From IMG/VR virus record IMGVR_UViG_3300037088_000797, positions 64,001 to 128,000 of that record: DNA of 64,000 bases, one strand, 5' to 3'. The notes beneath the pieces were generated by a model. It did no database searches and had not been told where the DNA came from. It worked only from the letters and a program-made list of their open reading frames with translations. A program made the position numbers and the translations under genes. Source of the DNA: a virus. How positions within the stretch are numbered: position 1 is the stretch's first letter; each line of letters opens with the position of its first letter. This document shows positions 23,095 to 36,315 of the stretch, piece after piece.

Positions 23095-23925
23095 TTATTT
23101 TAGTCCTTGTATTAATGTATCACCATATTTAATACCATCATATCCTAACTTCATTGCCTTTTCAGCAATGGCTTTGTTTTTAAGATTAATTGATGGCATA
23201 TCATATTGTTCACTTATTTTTTCAAAATTTATGTGCGGAAACCAAATTTTCGCCATTATATCGAGTGGTTCTTGACCGTCTTTATACGTAACACCCATCG
23301 AGTGCAGATCAAGGAGATTGTCGAATTCGATTTCATACTTATCAAAACCTTCAACGGGTTTTAACATGAAAAAATTTCCAACCACTGAATTTTCTTTTAT
23401 TGGTTCTTTTCTGTAACCAATGACAGTTTTATTATTTGTACCAGTATCACCAGAAGGCTTAAGTGCTAAATTATCTTCTTCAAGTGTGTTAAGAAATTGA
23501 TTTTCATCACCACCATAATAATTTATTGTATCCTGCATTTCAACTTCTTCCAAACCACGAGATTGCTCATATTCGTAAATGTCTTGTATTTTATTTAACA
23601 TTCTACAAGCATCTTTTTCATTCATTGCAAGTTTTACTGCTTTAAGTGGTACATTATCAATTAATGCTTTTAAATATCTGTGATGACCGTCACAAATATT
23701 CATTTTTTCTCCCGCAATCCAAATTGGATTAGTGTCATCAATATTAACTTTTTCTACTTCATCAGAAAATGTAACGCCTTGTGAAACATTTATATCGTCA
23801 TCTTCTTTAGGATTAAGCTCTATTAATTCATATTCAATACCTTCTTCATCAAGTTTCTGAAGTACAGTTTCATAAGGCATTGAAATTTGTGGAAGATATG
23901 ATGGCTTATATTTCATTGTTATCAT
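23095..23925 (-). CDS. ParB-like protein with a C-terminal ART/toxin-like segment
   Basis: 276 residues from the ATG at 23925, which overlaps the upstream stop as ATGA. Residues ~60-110 carry a ParB/sulfiredoxin-type motif (NICDGHHRYLKALID) seen in ParB-like nucleases and in NAD/ATP-linked enzymes. The C-terminal part (NFFMLKP ... YEIEFDNLLDLHSMGVTY, then AEKAMKLGYDGIKYGDTLI) has the 'GYDGIKY' end found in several phage and toxin ADP-ribosyltransferase-like domains. The function is not established. It shares the DG(H/Y)H module with the 397- and 2021-residue proteins upstream. Confidence 0.65.
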   Translation of the reverse strand: MITMKYKPSYLPQISMPYETVLQKLDEEGIEYELIELNPKEDDDINVSQGVTFSDEVEKVNIDDTNPIWIAGEKMNICDGHHRYLKALIDNVPLKAVKLAMNEKDACRMLNKIQDIYEYEQSRGLEEVEMQDTINYYGGDENQFLNTLEEDNLALKPSGDTGTNNKTVIGYRKEPIKENSVVGNFFMLKPVEGFDKYEIEFDNLLDLHSMGVTYKDGQEPLDIMAKIWFPHINFEKISEQYDMPSINLKNKAIAEKAMKLGYDGIKYGDTLIQGLK

Positions 23926-24659
23926 AATACTGATTGATTTTTTAATTCGCAAAATAATGCTTCCTCAAAATATTTATCTACTGAATATGGTATTTTAATT
24001 AATTTAAATCCATTATTTACGGCATATTTTATTTTAATGAAATCATATTTTTTTCTTAATAATAATGAATCTTTGCCACCAAAAAAAGGTATTACTTTAT
24101 TGTGTTGTATACCATCATATTCAATAAGTATTTTATGGTCTGGTAAATAAAAATCATAAAATAATGGTTTTGAATCACCAACTAATTCTTTGAATGTTAT
24201 TTCTCGTTCAAAATTAATGTTATTATTCAATAAAAATTTGGCAACTTTTCTCTCACCTAATGATTCACGACATAAGCGACATCCATTTCCATTTAAATGA
24301 GAATGTGGTGTTTGTTGAAATTTACCATGTTTTTTGCAAATAACAATAATTTTATTTTCATATCCATCATATTTAACTAATGAATAATCATATGTGTTAC
24401 TATGTATTTTATTTGCTTTTTCAATAAATTCTTCATTTGTGAATCTATTTTCTTTCGAAGTTTTTTCGTATTGGCACATTTTACAACCATATCCTGTCAA
24501 ATGATCATTTGGTCTCTGTAAAAATTCACCATGTTTAGGACAAATAATTACCACTTTTGATTTACTATGAATGTAGTCAACATTAGAATAATCATATTTA
24601 TCACCATGTTTTTTTTGTGCATTGATGACAAAATTTTTTTTATTTGAACTTATTCCCAT
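23922..24659 (-). CDS. Vsr-like (EDxHD-type) homing endonuclease with zinc-ribbon repeats
   Basis: 245 residues. Two copies of a ~55-residue repeat with a zinc-binding C-x-x-H/C-x-x-C pattern (ICPKHGEFLQRPNDHLTGYG, then CKMC; ICKKHGKFQQTPHSHLNGNG, then CRLC) bind DNA in such proteins. The C-terminal nuclease domain has FYLPDHKILIEYDGIQH, the E-x-D-G-x-Q-H motif of Vsr-fold EDxHD homing endonucleases. A clear paralogue lies at 35596-36315. It has its own late-type motif 18 nt upstream and is wedged between two accessory genes, overlapping the next by 4 nt. Confidence 0.83.
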   Translation of the reverse strand: MGISSNKKNFVINAQKKHGDKYDYSNVDYIHSKSKVVIICPKHGEFLQRPNDHLTGYGCKMCQYEKTSKENRFTNEEFIEKANKIHSNTYDYSLVKYDGYENKIIVICKKHGKFQQTPHSHLNGNGCRLCRESLGERKVAKFLLNNNINFEREITFKELVGDSKPLFYDFYLPDHKILIEYDGIQHNKVIPFFGGKDSLLLRKKYDFIKIKYAVNNGFKLIKIPYSVDKYFEEALFCELKNQSVL

Positions 24660-24692: not shown

Positions 24693-25886
24693 TTAAATTT
24701 TTTGAAATGGTATTGTTTTTCTACCTGCCATTTTATAAGCATAGTATCTATGATATCCATCCTTAAGTAAATTATTCTTATCTAAAACAACTGGTGGTAA
24801 TTCACTTCCTGTTTTTAATTTCTTGATCATTGTTTCCACTCTTAATTTATCTAAAGGTATTTTACCACTATTATGAACACTAATTATTTCGTTGGGATTA
24901 TTGGTGTCTACCAATATAAGTTCACCATTTATCTTAATGTTATTTATATCAATATTTTGTATTGAATTTTGAATTTCTTCATTAATGTTTTGTTTTATTT
25001 CTTTGTCGATAAAATCCCAATTATTCAATGGAATCCAACCGTATTTTGTATTAATTTCCAGTTCATCTACTGGTATTTCTCTGGTTGTTACCCATTCATA
25101 TGAATCATTTTTCTTATATTTGGGTGACAATTGAAAATCATCTGTCTTTTTTGTTCTAAGTACAATACCTCTGGCTGACCCACCTTTCATATCAGCATAA
25201 TATTTTGCGACATTAGGTTTACCAGTAAATGAAATATATGGTTCATTATTATTTGCTGCATTGATCTTCATACTACCAGTACGTTGTATGTAATACCCAG
25301 CACCATCATATGTGCCATGATAAACATAATTATCTTCAGCAATAAAGTTTTGAATTTCTTCAGCAACTATATTGGTGACTTCATCCAATGTCAACTCACC
25401 CTTATTTGCAATATAAATATTGAATTTAATACCTTCTGGTAATGAATTTCTTATGCCTTCGTATGTGGTAATATCAGTATCCCTGTCATCATAAACGTTA
25501 ATCTCTCTTAGGTCTGGTAATTTAGTTGCATAATCAAGAATTTTTTGACCCTTATTTCTTGCACCACGTTGCATATCAAGTTTATCAACTTTAATATGGT
25601 TAACATCCAGTACTGCTTGTACTAAGGGACGTAATTTTTCTTGTCGTGAGGTTAATACAATAGTATATGTGGCAGGTGTTGAAACATCTTTATTTAAAAT
25701 GCTTAATACCTTTGGAAATGGTTTAATGTCGAAAACATCTAAATCCAAACTTTCGGGTCTACCCCACCAGCCTTGATATTTAAATGGCACACCCTTCTTG
25801 TATGACCAGAAACGTTGTCCTGTTTCTTTCTCAGGAGTATTAATAAGTGTTGCATCAAAATCAAATGCGCATAATCTTGTTATCAT
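24693..25886 (-). CDS. HAD phosphatase - ADP-ribosyltransferase - ParB-like fusion
   Basis: 397 residues with three domains. Residues 1-170 are a HAD-type phosphatase: CAFDFDATLI (D9/D11), VLTSRQEK (motif II) and YDDRDTDI (motif IV), like the HAD domain of 'Swiss Army Knife' RNA-repair proteins. Residues ~185-290 resemble an ADP-ribosyltransferase of the H-Y-E kind (YVYHGTYDG, SFTGKPNVAKYYAD, EWVTTREIPVDEL). Residues ~305-397 are ParB-like, with DGYHRYYAYKMAG. The domains are separated by linkers with VAE (174-176), IAE (182-184) and INE (301-303), candidate prohead-protease sites. Order and context support a processed, virion-delivered effector, but activity is inferred. Confidence 0.75.
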   Translation of the reverse strand: MITRLCAFDFDATLINTPEKETGQRFWSYKKGVPFKYQGWWGRPESLDLDVFDIKPFPKVLSILNKDVSTPATYTIVLTSRQEKLRPLVQAVLDVNHIKVDKLDMQRGARNKGQKILDYATKLPDLREINVYDDRDTDITTYEGIRNSLPEGIKFNIYIANKGELTLDEVTNIVAEEIQNFIAEDNYVYHGTYDGAGYYIQRTGSMKINAANNNEPYISFTGKPNVAKYYADMKGGSARGIVLRTKKTDDFQLSPKYKKNDSYEWVTTREIPVDELEINTKYGWIPLNNWDFIDKEIKQNINEEIQNSIQNIDINNIKINGELILVDTNNPNEIISVHNSGKIPLDKLRVETMIKKLKTGSELPPVVLDKNNLLKDGYHRYYAYKMAGRKTIPFQKI

Positions 25887-25909: not shown

Positions 25910-26419
25910 CTAACTTTTTGTAAAATTATCATAATACATTACTTCATCTTCTTTTATCATTGTAACCCAACCATCTTTTTTATCAACTTTATGATGAATG
26001 TACTTAACTAAAACATCATGTCCCACAAGATGTGCTTTTTTTGGTGTATCGTCACCATCACCAGTAAAATGCGCTCTTCCGTATTCAAAATGTTGTTCAA
26101 GAAAACGATATATTTCAAGTGGAGTAATCCATATATATCTATATCCTGTGATAAACACCCAATATTTTGCTTTAGTCACTGATAATGCGGATAATTTACC
26201 GTTCATTTCAACCTCAATCACCAAATTACCAGTATGTTTTGATTTGTAATCATTTTTAACTTCAACACCAGCATTTATTTCTGGTATAAAAATATCCCAA
26301 TCACTATTTGCTTTACCTATATCATCAATATATGACTTAGGATACTTGTGCTGTAAAATTTTCAATATTTCTTCTTCTCCAATATTACCAGCTTTTTTTG
26401 ATTCTTTATATTCGCTCAT
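25910..26419 (-). CDS. PD-(D/E)XK nuclease-like protein
   Basis: 169 residues. GNIGEEEILKILQHKYP, then ANSDWDIFIPEINAGVEVKND, gives the glutamate, D-x(n)-E-x-K pattern (D~46, E/K in VEVKND) of PD-(D/E)XK nucleases. Restriction-type or recombination nucleases share this fold. The gene lies between the HAD-ART-ParB and 2H genes in the accessory unit with 7-23 nt gaps. Confidence 0.68.
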   Translation of the reverse strand: MSEYKESKKAGNIGEEEILKILQHKYPKSYIDDIGKANSDWDIFIPEINAGVEVKNDYKSKHTGNLVIEVEMNGKLSALSVTKAKYWVFITGYRYIWITPLEIYRFLEQHFEYGRAHFTGDGDDTPKKAHLVGHDVLVKYIHHKVDKKDGWVTMIKEDEVMYYDNFTKS

Positions 26420-26426
26420 ATTTCAG

Positions 26427-26810
26427 TTAATTATATTCTACTTCAGTTACTTTTCCTGTTAATGATAATGGTCTTCTAATTTTTTCCCAATTTTTCAAAT
26501 TATTTGACATCATTGGCTTACCACCATTTGCTCTATTTACTGCAAGTGTTACATGTGCTTTTGGATTAAGTGTTTTAAAGCCAGATACTCCAACTGCAAT
26601 CACTTTATCATCCATTGCAATGTCTTCAACTGCCAGTCTTACTGGTAATCCAAGATATTTTTGATAATCTGGGTCGATTTCACCTGTATTAATAGTCATG
26701 TGATGCGCAATAATCTCCCAGCCTTCAGGTATTACGTTTTTAAATCTGTTAATTAATCTTTTTCTTGATTGTTCATCAAGTACAACAGCACTATATGAAA
26801 TGTTGTCCAT
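26427..26810 (-). CDS. 2H phosphoesterase (tRNA-ligase CPD-like)
   Basis: 127 residues. Two H-x-T/S motifs (AHHMTINTGEID near residue 40 and AHVTLAVNRANGG near residue 90) and the surrounding YSAVVLDEQSRKRL ... GWEIIAHH pattern match small 2H proteins related to the cyclic phosphodiesterase domain of fungal tRNA ligase. Such enzymes open 2',3'-cyclic phosphates on cut RNA. It begins 2 nt after the giant polyprotein, which itself ends in a second 2H domain. Confidence 0.75.
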   Translation of the reverse strand: MDNISYSAVVLDEQSRKRLINRFKNVIPEGWEIIAHHMTINTGEIDPDYQKYLGLPVRLAVEDIAMDDKVIAVGVSGFKTLNPKAHVTLAVNRANGGKPMMSNNLKNWEKIRRPLSLTGKVTEVEYN

Positions 26811-26812
26811 GT

Positions 26813-29800
26813 TTATTCGTTTAATAGTTCTCTGTCAGTTAATGCCCAGAGTAATTCTTTTTTAAGATGTTCATCGTGTGTAAGGTCTTCATAATTATTC
26901 TGAAAAAATTCAAGAACACTTGCAGTTGAAGGGTCTTTATAACCATCTTGATTCCATATATCGTATTTTTCAACAAAGAATGGTATTCCTACTTCTTGTC
27001 CGTTTATATTCCAGATATCTTTTTTTTCAGGTTCTAATGTATCATATGAAAATTCTTTTAACAAACCATCATCATTAAGATTTAATATCTCACCATCTTT
27101 ACCTCTGCGACCTTTCCACGTATAAACCAATTCATCACCCTTCAATATTCTTTCTTTTTCAAATGGTTTAATGTACTTTTTACCTTCACCTTTTTTAACG
27201 TATGCAATTGTAATGTGTGCGTGGTAGTCAGGAAACTTAGTGGTATTTGGCAGTTCTCTCATAATACCATTAACCTTTGCAAGTAAATCTGAATTAACGT
27301 CAAATTTAACCACATCAAAATCGGGGTTTTCAAACACTGAAATACCAGATATTTTAACTTCAATTGGTTTCAACGGCATCTTTGATTTGTATAATTCAAA
27401 TACCTGTTCTGGTGTAACTTCATCATGAAATCCATATAATATTGTAAGATGTGGTTCTTTTTCAACACCATAGTCATCGCCCTTTATGTAAAGATCGTCC
27501 AAATCAACAACTGATGTGATCTTGCTCCAAATAGGTACTTCGAGAAATAACATAAGACAACCATACTCAATTCTTTCGGATGTTTCTTCTTTAATTTCTT
27601 TTGCATTTGCAAATCCAACAGTATTTCTTGCATTTTGTAATGCATCATATTTTTCTATTGTCGTTAATCTTACGTGTGAACCATTAATTGGATGATTGTA
27701 ATCCACCCTGCCATTATCAATAAATTCTACAAGTTGTTCTTCAGTCATATTTGTTGTCCAAATATCGCCTCTAAATTTATTATCCAAGGGACGCATTTCA
27801 ATTAAATATGTATTTGTTTCTTTATCAAAAACAATATTATTCAATACAACCATCATCATACCGCTTGGACTACCAAAATATAATTTTCGATTACTATATT
27901 TTCTCCAACCTAAACCTTCAGCGTGTTCTTCTTTAATCATCGGCTTTTCTTGCTTTGCCAAAGATAGTAAATCTTCTTTATTATTCATAGCATTATTTGA
28001 ATAAACCTTTAATAACAATGATTTTTGCATATCACCAATTGCTTTGCCCTGTAAACCAAGTTGCATTAAGTCATTGCCATTTATTGCTAATTCATTGACA
28101 CTCTTTGGATATTTGCCTTGCAGTAGTTCTTGTGCTGCAGTTTTAATAACATTAGGTAATATCTGGCTCTGTAATGATGTAGGAGATATTACGTACATGT
28201 TATGAGCAACTGAACGTGCTTCAACTAAATTAGTTGCTTCTCTGCTTTCAAATGCTATTTGAAGTGCCTTAATTTCTCTATAAGCATTTTCATCACCCTT
28301 TAAATTAGTTTTATAAAACTCTGCTGGGTCGTTAACAAGATTTTTACTTAATAAATAAACAAATTCGCCTATTGTTCTTACTTTATCGAAAGGTTCTTTT
28401 GTGTTTCTGAAGTCATAATATAATCCTTTGCCGAATATTTCTTTAAGTAAACCAGTTTCGTCAAGTAATATTGCACCTGTCAAAATATTGCCCTTTTTGA
28501 CAATTTTATCAAATTCTGTCAAAATTCTTTCGGGAGCAATTTCTTTAACTCTTTCAGCATTTTCCTGAATCATTTTCATTGTTTCTGGTTCAATAGTAAA
28601 ACCGAAACGACTTGCAAACTGTACAGCACGCAACATTCTAAGTGGGTCATCACTGAATGCCTGTGGATTAACAACCTTGATGACCTTATTCTTTAAGTCT
28701 TCCTGACCACCGAAAGGGTCAACTATATTACCATCAATATCTTTTGCAATTGCATTAATCGTAAAGTCCCTACGTTCCAAATCCTTTTCTATTGGCAATG
28801 CATGATCAGACTTAACATCAAATCCCTGATGACCACCTTCACCTGTTGGTGTTTCAGTACGTGGGATTGCAATATCAATATCTTCAGTTGCTCCTTTTGG
28901 TTTGAATTTAAGCACACCGAATGATTTACCAACAGCATTCACAGCACCATACTTACCAAGAATCTGTTCGAGTTGTTCAAATGGTATGCCTGTAATAAGA
29001 ATATCCAAGTCTTTGGATTCTTTGCCAAGAATTTCATCCCTGACAGCACCGCCAACTGAATATATTTTACCACCTGCTTCTTCAACATCTTCTCTGAATG
29101 GAAGATAGTTTAATCCCATTATTTGCCCCTCATATATCATTTTGCGCATTCTTTTGTTTGAGTATAAAAAATTATCCAAATCTTCTTTATCGGTAGGTAA
29201 TTGAAAATTCTGATGTTTACTATGTTCTTCATCACCAATATCGGTATAAATATATGATTCTCCCCCTAATGAACTTGAATAAGCATCAAGCAATACTTCT
29301 TTCAGTCTTTCTTCAGTTGGTGCATGAATATCTAATATATTTCCAATCTCTCCCTTATTAAATATTATTCTTGTATAACCATCATTATATGCCCTGTTGT
29401 ATATTTCATTTTGACTTTTTATGTCTGGATATAATCGCACTAAATAAGCCAAATGTACATCAGATTCAATAAATTTATTGTCAGGTGTTATCCAACCAGT
29501 ATGATCATAATTAGGAACTCTGATATTCCCTTCTGTTAATACCTCATTTATAGATTCATTTGCTGGTTCATGTTTTTGTTTACTCTTTTCTGGTTTGAAA
29601 GTTTTTACAAATGTATCATAAATTTTCTCAGCAATAGCACGATTTGCTCCATTTGGTATGTTTTTTCTGAACATCATTTCAATTTTGTTCGCAATCTCGT
29701 GAGCGTCATCATATTCATAACCATAATGTCTTATAATAAAACTTTCTGTTCTTTCATGTAATAGTATTGCTTCAAAGTCTGCTGGTTTGATCATAAACAC

Positions 29801-32800
29801 ATCATCAATCCAATATTCATTTTCTCCAATATGACTTGCATATTTCTGTTCGATTTTTGGAAGATCAGCATCAACCCAATGGTTACCACCATCGACCCAT
29901 TCAATAAATCCACTATCACGAACCTGATCACCATTAACGGCAAACACACTATATGTGTGATCTCCATCCTGATAATTTCTTATAAATTTCTTATCAAGAT
30001 GATGTGTAGTAAGGTCTTGCTGAATATCTTTTTCAAATTCAGGAAAATTTTCTTCATTTAAGTCCCAGAAATCATATGCAACTTCTTCATCAAGATCATT
30101 AAAGTCATCTGGTGATTTATCAGGCATTATTGGCACTTTGCTACCATATTTATTACGAATGTGTTGTTCTATATCGCTTGGTTTATAATCTAATAATTTT
30201 CCGATCTCACGTGCTTCTTCTGGAGTTTTATCTTTAAGATAACCTTCATTGTTCTTTGCAAAATCATATAATAAATATGCTTTAACCTTATCAGTATATA
30301 TAATTGCCATCATTGTTAGACGTGAAGTCATTCTTGTGGGAATTACACCAATTTTTCTTTTTTCAAGTTTTTGAGCAATTTCTTTATTAATTTCAAGAAA
30401 AGCAACGCCTCTTTTTCCATTTAAAATAGACTTAATTGCAGCAATATCGCTACGCATTTCTTTTGCATTAACTTCTTCGTTAACTTCTTCTTTTAATGGC
30501 TTAATGTCCACAGCATTAATGTCACCCCAATTACATTGAGCACTTGTGTTACCCAAGCCACCTAATCTACATTTCTTTTTAATTTCAACAGTACTGCTAC
30601 CTTCCATAGAAGATAATTTTCTTTCTTCATTCAATTCTTCTGATGATATATCAACAGCATTGATTGTTGCCACTTCTTTATTAAAAAAGGCAACTATTTT
30701 ATGATAACCATCAATTAAAATCTTATCAGAAGTACTAATCACAAAATAATCATTTAAATGCTTTTCAATATTCTCTTCATAGTATTTTATTGTTTCTAAT
30801 TGTTCTTCTTTCGTATTATCAATACTATCTTCAATTTCGCCATTATTATAAAACAAATAAATGTCCTTAACGCTTAATTTTTTTAATTCAAAATATGTGT
30901 TATTATATTCATCCGTTGTAATAAAATTCCATAACATTTCATGTTTATCGGGCATTTCAGGATAAACCTCAGATAGTTTAATTTTATTTACATTTTGTAC
31001 TTCTTCAGACATCAAATATTCATCTTTAGTAGCATCGTCAACATGATTATATTCTAAATCTTCTTCAATATTTGTATTTGCGTTTATATCGTTCTGAATT
31101 GAAGGAGAATTATCAATATTATTATGTGCAGGAAAATTATCTTGACCCATTGCATTATCGGTTGAAAATTTTGCGCTACCATCTTCAGGAAGATAAATAA
31201 TATCTTGTGCCATCATTGTTGGTTCATGTGCTTTATAACCACCAACATCAAAAAATTTCAACACCCCGTTTTGATATCCCAAGTTACCTGCATTACCATA
31301 GTCATCTGACTTAATACCATATTTACGTAATTCTTCTTGTATGTTAATTAAATCAATTAAATAGTCATATGTTGATTCTCTGTCTTCAGCAGAAATATTT
31401 AATTCTGGTTTATCACTTATTAAGTGTTTTGCAACTTCACCTACTTCTGCAGATGATTTTTTACGCATCATTAACAAGATATCAATATAATTCAATCCTG
31501 CAGGTTCAATTGTGTCAATTGTTTTCATGTATATGAAAAATTCTGCAGTAGGTTTGTCCTTAACGTTTTCCTGAAGAATTGCAAAGAAAGCGAGTTGTTT
31601 TACAGTATCAATTATTTTATAAAATGAGAATATTTTAGCAATATACTTTGGCTGTTCATTTATTAATTTACCAGCAGCATCTGCTTCGCTCTTATCTGCA
31701 GTTATTTTCAATATTACATTATCGTTAATTGTGAATGCATGACCATTTGAACCACCATCCATGTATACTGGTTCTGCCCCAAGATTTATTTTTTTTGCAA
31801 AAGCACTTGCCAATTCAGTTGCATAGTTTTTATCTTCTAATGTAAACGGTTTAACTGTTTGTCTTGAAGGATTTGTTGCTTCATTAATTTCATATTCTTC
31901 TTTAAGAAGCGGGTCTCTGTCATAATATTTATTTTCAATAAGCCATTCTTGAAGCGTCAATAAATTATTATAAAATTTCTTTTTCTGTGGAACACGTTTC
32001 AATACTTCTTTAAGATTGTTTACCACATTATGAAATTCATCAAGAACATACGGTGCGCTCGGTAATTTCTTTGGATATTTATCTCTGGCAAGTACAAATG
32101 AAATAAAACCTTCATTAATGACACCACCACCATCACCAACACCATAAGGCATTTGCGCCCACATACCTCTACGAGTATCGATTGCATCTTGTGGTGGCAT
32201 ATCTGAAAGTATATCATCATTACCATCAGCACAATTAAACATTTCATACATCTGATATTGTTGCTTTCTTTTTGGACTATAATGAGTATTATAAACTTCA
32301 TCAGTTAATCCATAATCACTAAGAACAATTGTTGGTTGACCATCACGAAAAACCTCACCATAGGTACTTGCTCTACCCAAATCACCTGCAGATATCGAAT
32401 AATTTGACATTATGTCTTGTAAATCAGTGACAAATTCATTATCGTTTAATAATTTTTCAATATCTACATCCAAGCCAAATATATTTCCACCACCTTTAAT
32501 TCTATTTTCATGATTTCTAAGAAAATAAAACAATTCATTTAAACTTGGAATACCTGTTAATTGTTTAATTCTTGCTTCGCTTACTTTTTTTGCTTTCTCC
32601 GCAACAATCCAACTACCATTATTATCGGATTCTAAAACCTTTGTAACAATATAATGTGTGTCTGGATATCTACCAATATTTATTTCTGCGTCATTCTGAG
32701 CAACACCCTTGGCGTTCTTAGCTAATTTGAATACCTTTGTGCCATCAATATCGTAAACAATTCTACCACTACCAGCACCAAGTTTCAGAAGGTTTTGATC

Positions 32801-32878
32801 GGCATATATAATTTTCTGTCTAAAGGACTGTATTTCTTCAAATTGGTCTAAGAAATTTAAGAATTCATCGTAAGTCAT
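26813..32878 (-). CDS. Giant polyvalent protein: two kinase-like folds, ParB-like, CCA-adding enzyme, 2H phosphoesterase
   Basis: 2021 residues; start 23 nt after a late-type motif. Domains in order: kinase-like 1 (~34-215; G-loop GAGSGRIVY, lysine in KVFKLA, LSDYGL in DFG place); short helical segment (257-333); kinase-like 2 (~360-600; GGSNGHAF, GNLGYQNGVLKFFDVGG); ParB-like (~640-745; LIDGYHKIVAFF); Cys motif KKCRLGG...AQCNWGD (~760); HERTE...AHEIA segment; CCA-adding/poly(A) polymerase-type nucleotidyltransferase (~1270-1600; GGAVRD 1276-1281, DLDIL, RRDFTINA, DPLRMLRAVQFASRFGF); 2H phosphoesterase (~1770-1900; HLTI 1810, HITI 1888). Boundaries coincide with INE (254-256, 331-333), LNE (749-751), INE/LTE (1110-1116) and IKE (1648-1650, 1762-1764). 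Kinase activity is doubtful, since the HRD loops are unclear. CCA-enzyme and 2H calls are strong. Confidence 0.82.
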   Translation of the reverse strand: MTYDEFLNFLDQFEEIQSFRQKIIYADQNLLKLGAGSGRIVYDIDGTKVFKLAKNAKGVAQNDAEINIGRYPDTHYIVTKVLESDNNGSWIVAEKAKKVSEARIKQLTGIPSLNELFYFLRNHENRIKGGGNIFGLDVDIEKLLNDNEFVTDLQDIMSNYSISAGDLGRASTYGEVFRDGQPTIVLSDYGLTDEVYNTHYSPKRKQQYQMYEMFNCADGNDDILSDMPPQDAIDTRRGMWAQMPYGVGDGGGVINEGFISFVLARDKYPKKLPSAPYVLDEFHNVVNNLKEVLKRVPQKKKFYNNLLTLQEWLIENKYYDRDPLLKEEYEINEATNPSRQTVKPFTLEDKNYATELASAFAKKINLGAEPVYMDGGSNGHAFTINDNVILKITADKSEADAAGKLINEQPKYIAKIFSFYKIIDTVKQLAFFAILQENVKDKPTAEFFIYMKTIDTIEPAGLNYIDILLMMRKKSSAEVGEVAKHLISDKPELNISAEDRESTYDYLIDLINIQEELRKYGIKSDDYGNAGNLGYQNGVLKFFDVGGYKAHEPTMMAQDIIYLPEDGSAKFSTDNAMGQDNFPAHNNIDNSPSIQNDINANTNIEEDLEYNHVDDATKDEYLMSEEVQNVNKIKLSEVYPEMPDKHEMLWNFITTDEYNNTYFELKKLSVKDIYLFYNNGEIEDSIDNTKEEQLETIKYYEENIEKHLNDYFVISTSDKILIDGYHKIVAFFNKEVATINAVDISSEELNEERKLSSMEGSSTVEIKKKCRLGGLGNTSAQCNWGDINAVDIKPLKEEVNEEVNAKEMRSDIAAIKSILNGKRGVAFLEINKEIAQKLEKRKIGVIPTRMTSRLTMMAIIYTDKVKAYLLYDFAKNNEGYLKDKTPEEAREIGKLLDYKPSDIEQHIRNKYGSKVPIMPDKSPDDFNDLDEEVAYDFWDLNEENFPEFEKDIQQDLTTHHLDKKFIRNYQDGDHTYSVFAVNGDQVRDSGFIEWVDGGNHWVDADLPKIEQKYASHIGENEYWIDDVFMIKPADFEAILLHERTESFIIRHYGYEYDDAHEIANKIEMMFRKNIPNGANRAIAEKIYDTFVKTFKPEKSKQKHEPANESINEVLTEGNIRVPNYDHTGWITPDNKFIESDVHLAYLVRLYPDIKSQNEIYNRAYNDGYTRIIFNKGEIGNILDIHAPTEERLKEVLLDAYSSSLGGESYIYTDIGDEEHSKHQNFQLPTDKEDLDNFLYSNKRMRKMIYEGQIMGLNYLPFREDVEEAGGKIYSVGGAVRDEILGKESKDLDILITGIPFEQLEQILGKYGAVNAVGKSFGVLKFKPKGATEDIDIAIPRTETPTGEGGHQGFDVKSDHALPIEKDLERRDFTINAIAKDIDGNIVDPFGGQEDLKNKVIKVVNPQAFSDDPLRMLRAVQFASRFGFTIEPETMKMIQENAERVKEIAPERILTEFDKIVKKGNILTGAILLDETGLLKEIFGKGLYYDFRNTKEPFDKVRTIGEFVYLLSKNLVNDPAEFYKTNLKGDENAYREIKALQIAFESREATNLVEARSVAHNMYVISPTSLQSQILPNVIKTAAQELLQGKYPKSVNELAINGNDLMQLGLQGKAIGDMQKSLLLKVYSNNAMNNKEDLLSLAKQEKPMIKEEHAEGLGWRKYSNRKLYFGSPSGMMMVVLNNIVFDKETNTYLIEMRPLDNKFRGDIWTTNMTEEQLVEFIDNGRVDYNHPINGSHVRLTTIEKYDALQNARNTVGFANAKEIKEETSERIEYGCLMLFLEVPIWSKITSVVDLDDLYIKGDDYGVEKEPHLTILYGFHDEVTPEQVFELYKSKMPLKPIEVKISGISVFENPDFDVVKFDVNSDLLAKVNGIMRELPNTTKFPDYHAHITIAYVKKGEGKKYIKPFEKERILKGDELVYTWKGRRGKDGEILNLNDDGLLKEFSYDTLEPEKKDIWNINGQEVGIPFFVEKYDIWNQDGYKDPSTASVLEFFQNNYEDLTHDEHLKKELLWALTDRELLNE

Positions 32879-33655: not shown

Positions 33656-34564
33656 CTAATCTTTGAAAAAAGTCTTTCTAATCATAGGAATATTTTCATT
33701 TTCTCTAAACATTGGTGGATTTTGTGGGGTTTGCTTCTCAGCAAGACCTTTTACCATCCTGTCTTTTTGATTTTTAGCGAACTGATCTTGTGCTGCTTTA
33801 TTCACTGGTGTCTTCATGACAAGCCTGTTGTATAAGTTAATGAGATCATCCACATAAGCATTTTGTGGAAAATTGGCTTTTGTTCTCACATCCTGCAAAT
33901 TATAATTATTTCTGTCATCAATTGCAACAAAGAAATCTGTGATAGGTTTTTTGTAAACTTTTTTTGCAATGTCAACCAGTCCAATAACGTCTTCTTTAGT
34001 AATCTTACGATTGTTCTTATTTGCGTTTTTATATTTTTCCCATCTTGGTGTTTTGGGTTTTGCTGTTGGTAATATGTTTTTCATTGGTTGTTTTCCACCA
34101 GTAACTGATGCAACAATACCGCCTGTCATATCAGCATCGTTTTGTTTATATCCGGGCGGAACTTGAACATTTCCCTTCTCGTCTTCAAATTTTTTATGCA
34201 TTGGTACAATTGAAGTTATTTTGTCAACAAGAAACAATCTCCAAGCAGGTTTTGTTACTCCATCATTATCAAGATCATATTCATGACCTTTTCTTTTTAC
34301 TCTTGGAGCATCAGGTCTTAGGCTATCACTTCTCCCTTTATCTTGCCATGCTCTAAGTGCTAAATTGCCAGTGGTATTTACTCCCAGCACAAAAGGTCTT
34401 ATTGTTCGATAACCAGTTTCTTTTGTTGTATCACCCTTATAGTATATATACAAGAATTCATGGTTGTTGATAGCATCAACAATTGTCTTATCACTAACGC
34501 CCTCTGTTAAGAGTTGACGGAAATGCCTAATGTTTTCGAACAATATTTTAGACTCACTAATCAT
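33656..34564 (-). CDS. WYL-domain protein with a possible capsid-targeting leader
   Basis: 302 residues. Residues ~25-125 fit a WYL domain: FLYIYYKGD, TIRPFVLGVNTTGNLALRAW and WRLFLVDKITSIVPM. WYL domains bind nucleotides or nucleic acid and often regulate defence or repair loci. The first 21 residues (MISESKILFENIRHFRQLLT, then E) form a short amphipathic leader ending in L-T-E before Gly, very like the capsid-targeting sequences of T4 internal proteins. The C-terminal half is basic and Asn/Gln-rich. It overlaps the stop of the 79-residue gene by one base. Confidence 0.68.
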   Translation of the reverse strand: MISESKILFENIRHFRQLLTEGVSDKTIVDAINNHEFLYIYYKGDTTKETGYRTIRPFVLGVNTTGNLALRAWQDKGRSDSLRPDAPRVKRKGHEYDLDNDGVTKPAWRLFLVDKITSIVPMHKKFEDEKGNVQVPPGYKQNDADMTGGIVASVTGGKQPMKNILPTAKPKTPRWEKYKNANKNNRKITKEDVIGLVDIAKKVYKKPITDFFVAIDDRNNYNLQDVRTKANFPQNAYVDDLINLYNRLVMKTPVNKAAQDQFAKNQKDRMVKGLAEKQTPQNPPMFRENENIPMIRKTFFKD

Positions 34565-34847: not shown

Positions 34848-35618
34848 TTATTCGTCTTTTTTGAATGCCATTGTAATATATTCTATCAAATGTGGTACAA
34901 TATCTAAGAATTTCATTTCTTCAACATCATACCAACCATAGTTTGTGTTTTCTTCATTTAACTTAATATCTGTTGGTTCGCCATCATAACGACAAGCAAA
35001 TATGTGTTCAATACTATCTGGATTCTTTTGAATACTGAAGGACTTAATAAACTTACTGATATCCAAACCAGTTTCTTCTTTAATCTCTCTTTTAACTGCT
35101 TGCTCTGGAGTTTCATCTTTTTCAATCCCACCGCCAACTAATGCCCATTTACTTGGTTGCCATATCTTGGGGTCTGAACTTCTTTTAAGTAACAGTATTT
35201 TATTATCACCGTCTACAATTACTGCACAAGCATTTTTTTTCAGGTCTTTCTTTTCTTCATTCAGTCTGGGTGTCTGGTATGGTTTTAATTCTGAATTAGG
35301 ATTTGTTGCCATATCCTGTTTAACATTCTTTGTCATTTCAACACCTGCCCTGTCACTTGCCAATGTTGCTTCAATAAATTGTCTCATAGGATTACCGCCA
35401 GCAAGAGCATACTGCATCTTATCACCTGTTTGTGAATTAAAATAATCAAAGAAATTCTTCAGTCTTTTCATTGCCTGATAGGTTATAGCACCATTTTTAA
35501 GAAGATAATTAGCACGTTTAATGCCTTCTCCATCTGAACTCGATGCTTTTGCTATCTCAATACCTTTAAGTATGTCTGGAGGTATCCTATATTGTTTATT
35601 GTACAATTCTTGGTTCAT
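34848..35618 (-). CDS. NUDIX hydrolase with a helical N-terminal domain
   Basis: 256 residues. Residues ~126-250 are a NUDIX domain with the full box GGGIEKDETPEQAVKREIKE, then ETGL. NUDIX enzymes cleave nucleoside diphosphates linked to another group (NADH, ADP-ribose, capped RNA, Ap4A). The first ~115 residues are a separate helical domain (IPPDILKGIEIAKAS, YQAMKRLKNFFDYFN) of the kind found in other large-phage proteins. The two are joined at LNE (119-121), a candidate prohead-protease site directly before the catalytic domain. Its 5' end overlaps the upstream homing-endonuclease gene by 23 nt. Confidence 0.8.
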   Translation of the reverse strand: MNQELYNKQYRIPPDILKGIEIAKASSSDGEGIKRANYLLKNGAITYQAMKRLKNFFDYFNSQTGDKMQYALAGGNPMRQFIEATLASDRAGVEMTKNVKQDMATNPNSELKPYQTPRLNEEKKDLKKNACAVIVDGDNKILLLKRSSDPKIWQPSKWALVGGGIEKDETPEQAVKREIKEETGLDISKFIKSFSIQKNPDSIEHIFACRYDGEPTDIKLNEENTNYGWYDVEEMKFLDIVPHLIEYITMAFKKDE

Positions 35619-36315
35619 ATGTTTCTAAAATTTTCTCAATTTGATTTATTTGATCAAATCTAATTCTAAGTAAATTATAATTATTTGATTTGGCATATTC
35701 ATTTTTTATATTGTCATTAATTTTCTGTAAATTAAATTTATTTAAACCACCGAAATGATTATTCGGTGAAAAATGTTGTGCTCCATCAAATTCAATTAAC
35801 ACGTTGTTTTCAGGAAGAAAATAATCAAACGCAAGTTTATTAACGTTTTTACAATCATCAAACTTTTTTTCTCTTTCAAATTTTATTGAATTTTTCAATA
35901 AAAAATCGGCAATTCTTTTTTCGCCAATTGATTCATTACAACATGGACAACCACTTCCTTTTAAATGTGTGTTTGGTTTTTGAAAAAATGTTCCGTGTAC
36001 AAGACAAATAATATTAATATATTTATGCGCATCTATGTAATTAACCTCTGAATAATCATATTTTTCTCCATGAATTTCTTTTGCTTTAGAAATAAAATAT
36101 TCGGTATTTTTTCTTAATTTCATATCACCACATATTGGACAACCATGACCAGCTAAATGTGTATTTACTCGTTGTATAAATTCTCCGTGTTTAGGACATG
36201 TAATTACTATATTATCATGTGTTAATATAAAATCAACCAGATCATATAAATAATAATAATTATGAACAATATTTGCTTTTTTAATAAACATATCAATTGT
36301 TAATCTCTTACTCAT
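35596..36315 (-). CDS. Vsr-like (EDxHD-type) homing endonuclease, second copy
   Basis: 239 residues, same architecture as 23922-24659: two zinc-ribbon repeats (ITCPKHGEFIQRVNTHLAGH, then GCPIC; ICLVHGTFFQKPNTHLKGSG, then CPCC) and an EDxHD nuclease domain (FDYFLPENNVLIEFDGAQH). Its start overlaps the preceding stop by one base and its 3' end overlaps the NUDIX start by 23 nt, so it invades a gene junction without destroying either neighbour. Confidence 0.83.
   Translation of the reverse strand: MSKRLTIDMFIKKANIVHNYYYLYDLVDFILTHDNIVITCPKHGEFIQRVNTHLAGHGCPICGDMKLRKNTEYFISKAKEIHGEKYDYSEVNYIDAHKYINIICLVHGTFFQKPNTHLKGSGCPCCNESIGEKRIADFLLKNSIKFEREKKFDDCKNVNKLAFDYFLPENNVLIEFDGAQHFSPNNHFGGLNKFNLQKINDNIKNEYAKSNNYNLLRIRFDQINQIEKILETYEPRIVQ

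Follow-up and report, generated by a model that had tools for sequence, protein, structure and literature searches.

The stretch of DNA analysed here (the window) comprises 64,000 nucleotides, bases 64001-128000 of the 178,514-base virus record IMGVR_UViG_3300037088_000797, a tailed-phage fragment. On its minus strand it encodes a 2021-amino-acid (aa) mosaic polyprotein that contains a class II CCA-type tRNA nucleotidyltransferase (NTase) and a 2H phosphoesterase domain, with genes for a second 2H protein and a HAD phosphatase alongside. The chances are about even that this polyprotein reaches the host cell in the virion, as a polyvalent protein of a T4-type large or jumbo phage, and is cut into enzymes that heal host-damaged tRNA 3' ends. 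An earlier note on this DNA had described a packaged tRNA-repair toolkit. The open reading frames and positions that it gave were confirmed, with the polyprotein at 26813-32878 (minus strand), and enzyme identities, deep synteny and an RNA ligase gene in the genome support the proposed tRNA-healing set in part. However, "toolkit" is too narrow a term, because the NTase lies within a much larger mosaic of modules, which that note had overlooked.

The assignment to tailed phages follows from a baseplate wedge gene near the polyprotein and from homologues of T4 gp20, gp21 and gp23 in relatives of the same lineage. Relatives were collected by scans with the whole 2021-aa protein and with its N-terminal module (K1), giving 37 loci from metagenomic phage contigs (records ≤349 kb), of which 23 were used as distinct representatives; stretches outside the window are cited by L numbers. 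With the whole polyprotein as query against annotated phages, only the NTase part was hit among the matches listed. No K1 relatives were found in bacterial genomes, which thus give no clue to the host. The contig that holds the window is a genome fragment, and this bears on any gene absent from it.

The NTase, 2H and HAD genes

The NTase is recognized by Pfam as a PolyA_pol head (E=4.7e-23) followed by PolyA_pol_RNAbd (2.9e-15), matches the PHROG tRNA nucleotidyltransferase family (1.6e-68), and has a CCA-adding enzyme as its best solved relative (5e-31). The core motifs are intact, namely A (GGAVRD..DLD), B/A (RTE) with its flexible loop, B (RRDFTINA) and D (DDPLR), so that profiles and motifs both uphold the complete CCA-adding-type signature proposed earlier. 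Throughout the family DDxxR replaces the textbook EDxxR. By the motif definitions for these enzymes (PMC7014341) the protein is a class II CCA-type NTase, and CCA-adding activity is predicted. Outside the lineage, its best match in the phage collection (43% identity; family profile E=2e-104) belongs to the uncultured 636-kb phage LR756504 (L086:11938-13104); there, by contrast, the CCA enzyme is a 388-aa standalone gene with no polyprotein or cassette modules around it.

Both 2H regions show the paired HxT motifs and the 2H fold of that superfamily. The gene next to the polyprotein encodes, as had been proposed, a relative of the tRNA-ligase CPD domain: alone it matches tRNA_lig_CPD at 2.7e-5, and all 18 family members match this family, that of the fungal tRNA-ligase phosphodiesterase, and no other (best 8.3e-8). 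HMT is invariant among them and the second motif reads HxT. The CPD-type 2H was also modelled with high confidence, and the predicted fold matches CNPase, Usb1, LigT and CPDase. The 2H domain inside the polyprotein is weak in a single-sequence scan (LigT 0.034, Acb1 0.0015); with relatives, 7/7 match both 2_5_RNA_ligase2 (best 4.5e-11) and Acb1 (best 3.2e-9), and the histidine of both HxT motifs is invariant (EPHxT or EPHxS, and HxHxT). This domain had been placed at the C-terminus. Its 2H identity holds in all seven relatives, but the extreme C-terminus is formed by a conserved tail that follows it (Table 1).

The nearby HAD domain is of the Swiss-Army-Knife type associated with RNA repair. 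The full-length protein matches HAD_SAK_1 at 3.8e-5, slightly short of the curated cutoff, and the domain alone at 5.4e-6 (26.8 bits, above the cutoff of 25.6); 16 of 17 relatives match the family, and the HAD catalytic residues are all invariant. A CPD-type 2H stands at every one of the 21 distinct loci that can be read downstream of the NTase, and at 10 of these it is fused to the NTase chain; L033 has a compact 529-aa NTase-2H fusion. The HAD gene is present at 20/20 loci readable far enough. That the trio is fixed across loci is the strongest evidence that NTase, 2H and HAD act together.

None of the ten scanned window proteins is an RNA ligase or polynucleotide kinase, in agreement with the earlier note, which had set a search of the rest of the genome as a test. 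That search found an RNA_ligase-family gene (1.6e-12) in the same contig outside the window, so the objection of a genome without RNA ligase fails. The gene has a KIHGTS active-site motif, which we take to resemble that of T4 Rnl2, and a Thg1 gene (7.4e-25) lies ~2 kb away, also outside the window. Among records of at least 148 kb, RNA ligase occurs in 6/8 and Thg1 in 5/8, mostly adjoining. The contig also holds two HAD_SAK_2 genes (a family found in 7/9 records), a NADAR gene and a weak AAA_33 kinase.

In six phages of the lineage RNA ligase and Thg1 lie close together (L004:10120-12960 and L070-L074), a possible second repair cassette. At L003:18989-19528 a NADAR-domain protein (3e-48) may be a hydrolase of ADP-ribose derivatives. 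A separate observation concerns the NTase itself: at L010:13448-15097, and in the matching L014 stretch, the polyprotein is interrupted by a 324-aa ORF, possibly a homing endonuclease (no Pfam hit). This ORF and a divergent NTase head (RRDAKMNA type) are 100% identical between L010 and L014, the flanks are ~75-80% identical, and the N-terminal half of L010 matches the window polyprotein at 99% identity. The pattern looks like recent homing in which the NTase head was co-converted, with assembly chimerism as the alternative.

Linker motifs and possible packaging

The T4 protease gp21 cuts head proteins after L/I-X-E (PMC9026906). In 174 distinct polyprotein linkers [LIVMF]NE was observed 57 times, against 9.1 ± 2.9 (maximum 20) in 2000 shuffles, a statistic that counts related linkers as independent. 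Its density per 1000 aa is 19.1 in linkers, compared with 2.8 inside modules and 1.9 across this phage's other proteins. Modules unrelated to one another follow the motif, and in 15/19 cases it stands no more than ~25 residues ahead of the NTase.

Similar motifs occur outside the polyprotein. Core-gene leaders are conserved and end in LNE, and the leader of a 302-aa neighbour ends in LLTE↓G (the arrow marks the candidate cut) or a close variant in all relatives listed, the E being conserved in every one. An invariant MINE↓SS is found at residue 60 of the gp23-type capsid protein in 4/4 relatives read, close to residue 65, where T4 gp23 is cut. A gp21-family protease is encoded in four relatives with records >320 kb, and relative G011 combines Peptidase_S77 (6e-18) with Gp23 (3.5e-74) and Portal_T4 (1e-61).

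L/I-X-E sites at domain boundaries, together with a gp21-type protease in the lineage, suggest a prohead-cut, injected polyvalent protein. The word "packaged" in the earlier note thus gains circumstantial support from linkers that resemble prohead-protease sites and from the protease of the relatives, and the polyprotein is a candidate for capsid packaging.

Two further points concern these head genes. At L084:9153-11081 (minus strand) and L085:8003-9847 (plus strand) a long in-frame insert, probably an intein, splits the gp21-type protease directly behind the HPD motif. A 585-aa gene at contig position 145946 was considered as the capsid protein and rejected; its product is of the core type, variable in sequence apart from a conserved leader with LNE, and the true gp23 is found in relatives.

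Candidate repair scheme and its alternatives

In the proposed scheme the polyprotein would be made late and enter the prohead, where a gp21-type protease, to judge from the motifs, would cut the [L/I]-N-E linkers and yield separate enzymes. By analogy with T4 internal proteins, these would enter the cell with the DNA. As family membership suggests, 2H would then open the 2',3'-cyclic phosphate, the HAD phosphatase would take off the phosphate left behind, and the tRNA 3' end would be restored by the CCA-type NTase. The RNA ligase and Thg1, whose genes are present, may seal internal tRNA breaks and restore 5' ends, respectively. Both the substrate and the order of these steps we infer. A fuller version, a self-dividing capsid repair kit with variable modules, cut in the prohead, that heals tRNAs and rebuilds CCA at the onset of infection, ahead of host anticodon or CCA-end nucleases, is put forward tentatively, as somewhat less probable than not.

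Several observations weigh against this scheme. Virion packaging and enzyme activity are both predictions, and the kinase-like, ParB-like and M2 modules have no link to RNA repair. Related linkers count as independent in the shuffle statistics, the P1' position frequently holds D or E instead of A/G/S, and the window polyprotein has five strict [LI]xE[AG] sites where 3.6 are expected, no enrichment, so that the claim of cleavage rests on the linkers of the family. A PF03420 search found no prohead protease in the contig, itself a fragment. The PF09414 ligase is absent from 2/8 large records, and for polynucleotide kinase there was no confident match, the contig offering just the weak AAA_33 protein. 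Finally, the tRNA genes of the lineage mostly lack an encoded CCA, and maturation could be the main job of the NTase.

This last point leads to a housekeeping explanation, in which the NTase mainly matures the phage's own CCA-less tRNAs while 2H and HAD trim precursor 3' ends. CCA is encoded at or near the 3' end in 8/79 lineage tRNA genes examined (L007:10662-10734, L088-L091), the tRNA-Met gene of the contig lacks it, and records >320 kb have 34-50 tRNA-model matches, so the NTase may serve routine maturation. However, hosts own a CCA enzyme, the cassette is equally kept in records with 0-2 tRNAs (these records being fragments), and maturation requires no cyclic-phosphate phosphoesterase, no RNA ligase or Thg1, and no location within a mosaic polyprotein; as the main role it appears unlikely.

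For the internal 2H, and possibly also for its standalone counterpart, an alternative role is that of a phosphodiesterase of the Acb1 kind directed against CBASS or similar signals, with the NTase only a fellow counter-defence module. Acb1 is a phage-encoded 2H fold with two HxT motifs and the aromatic base-stacking residues Y12, W74, F107 and W147 (PMC9117128). The Acb1 matches of all seven internal-2H relatives agree with such a role, as does the closest solved chain by profile, Acb1 itself (E=0.0028), and the window domain falls just below the Pfam Acb1 cutoff (24.7 bits, curated cutoff 27). Since it lies between the 2'-5' RNA ligase and Acb1 types, an anti-CBASS role is conceivable, and the survey of polyvalent proteins proposes that 2H domains of this sort degrade nucleotide signals or act as RNases (PMC5512222). 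Yet the 2'-5' RNA ligase-type score is better, the standalone 2H consistently matches tRNA_lig_CPD only, and the context is that of tRNA repair, with many relatives fusing a CPD-type 2H to the CCA enzyme and the genome encoding an RNA ligase. We consider the Acb1 explanation quite unlikely, and regard in the same way the proposal that the polyprotein stays uncut, as one multidomain injected or structural protein whose N-E-rich linkers are recombination seams or a compositional habit. Modules are inserted and deleted cleanly at the linkers, as seams would predict, and the variable P1' residues and the lack of enrichment for strict sites also fit; but the same motif stands before unrelated modules, where cleavage of the capsid protein is expected and where core-gene leaders end, and in several relatives the protein is split into separate genes directly before the NTase.

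The cleaved, injected repair protein that we prefer can be set beside three known groups. Polyvalent proteins (Iyer et al. 2017; PMC5512222) are likewise >2000 aa long, mosaics of many unrelated domains that include kinase, ParB, GNAT and 2H-type modules; their genes lie near structural genes, and injection is predicted for them. The window protein is placed among them by its sequence features: it is a large single chain of many different domains, its modules are swapped, and its gene is co-directional with the baseplate wedge gene ~8.5 kb away, a linkage to late or packaging genes; transfer into the host is predicted. By contrast, the survey does not mention a CCA-adding enzyme (the term "CCA" is absent), the repeated prohead-protease-like linker sites seen here are a further difference, and the survey prefers nucleotide-signal or RNase roles for 2H partly because no link to RNA ligases was seen. 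Here the genome does encode an RNA ligase, and fusions join a CPD-type 2H with the tRNA NTase, which makes the lineage a candidate counterexample to the survey's case against a repair role. CCA-adding enzyme, Thg1, 2H, Swiss-Army-Knife-type HAD and ATP-grasp RNA ligase are the same parts described for tRNA repair in jumbo phages (PMC7824862), where they are separate functions, whereas here NTase, 2H and HAD form a fixed cassette in or beside a mosaic polyprotein. In T4, Alt and the internal head proteins (PMC9026906) are packaged in the head, injected and cut after L/I-X-E, and relatives in the present lineage have gp20-, gp21- and gp23-type genes; however, the T4 proteins lose end propeptides, whereas here many internal linker cuts are predicted, which would divide one chain into different enzymes.

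New with respect to the cited papers are the CCA enzyme, the fixed NTase-2H-HAD cassette with its fusions, the co-occurring RNA ligase and the repeated linker sites; no description of this combination was found in the open literature (subscription literature lay outside the search). The evidence joins two separate ideas, injected polyvalent proteins and phage tRNA repair, and the linker motif offers a testable handle on the delivery of early enzymes by phages as a polyprotein plus protease. If the repair scheme is true, the virus could mend the tRNAs that its bacterial host breaks down to defend itself.

Mosaic architecture and neighbouring genes

Three modules form the steady core of the polyprotein, namely the kinase-like one at the N-terminus, the short one that contains Cys, and the NTase. 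Second and third kinase-like modules, ParB-like, GNAT-like and several other modules, and the internal 2H are variable and cleanly inserted; K2, for instance, is cleanly deleted in L014-L016. In several relatives the polyprotein is divided into separate genes directly before the NTase. K1 has no Pfam match. For M2 no structural match reached E≤0.001, and the structure model of M2 and the LLHERTES-motif module has low confidence and no significant fold match. Pfam gave no confirmation of the labels WYL (for the 302-aa neighbour) and zincin or ParB (for other modules). The ART-like part of the HAD extension is common to L015 and L016.

Table 1. Positions of the polyprotein, its modules, candidate cleavage sites (↓) and neighbouring genes in the window.
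Feature	Position	Strand	Residues	Basis or remark
HAD C-terminal extension: ART-like region (YHGT...) and ParB-like tail	24693..25328	-		motif reading only
HAD phosphatase domain, HAD_SAK_1 type	25329..25886	-		D9, D11, T79-S80-R81, K112, D134 invariant
169-aa protein, phrog_13596, common cassette neighbour	25910..26419	-		PHROG match
Standalone 2H protein, tRNA_lig_CPD family	26427..26810	-		motifs HMT and HVT; gene next to polyprotein
2021-aa mosaic polyprotein	26813..32878	-		ORF, domain scans, alignment with relatives
Conserved C-terminal tail, ~80 aa	26816..27064	-	1939-2021	alignment of relatives
Internal 2H phosphoesterase	27071..27547	-	1778-1936	motifs EPHLT and HAHIT; between 2'-5' RNA ligase/LigT and Acb1 families
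X2 insert	27551..27898	-	1661-1776	alignment; relatives lack it
Class II CCA-type tRNA nucleotidyltransferase	27914..29125	-	1252-1655	profiles, motifs
Candidate site IYE↓G, directly before NTase	29129..29137	-	1248-1250	[LIM]NE there in most relatives
X1 module, optional	29144..29524	-	1119-1245	alignment of relatives
Candidate site LTE↓G	29531..29539	-	1114-1116	motif
LLHERTES-motif module, metallopeptidase-like	29561..30034	-	949-1106	motif only
M2 module	30044..30442	-	813-945	top structural matches 2guk, NleE (4r29)
Short Cys-containing conserved module, nearly universal	30479..30622	-	753-800	alignment of relatives
ParB-like module	30623..30994	-	629-752	motif reading only; absent or replaced in relatives
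K2, second kinase-like module, K1 homologue	31199..31879	-	334-560	alignment of relatives
Candidate site INE↓A, K1/K2 linker	31880..31888	-	331-333	motif
K1, kinase-like, universal N-terminal module, phrog_4301	31904..32878	-	1-325	motif reading: K51, D166, D188 invariant
Candidate site INE↓G	32111..32119	-	254-256	N255, E256 invariant in K1 family
302-aa neighbour, candidate co-packaged protein	33656..34564	-		leader end LLTE↓G

Two other features of the lineage were noted. At L004:7318-9258 a phage protein combines AAA and peptidase M41 domains (FtsH-like). Three related ORFs for HNH/DUF4379-type endonucleases lie between conserved genes, at window positions 23922-24659 and 35596-36315 and at L007:5273-5986.

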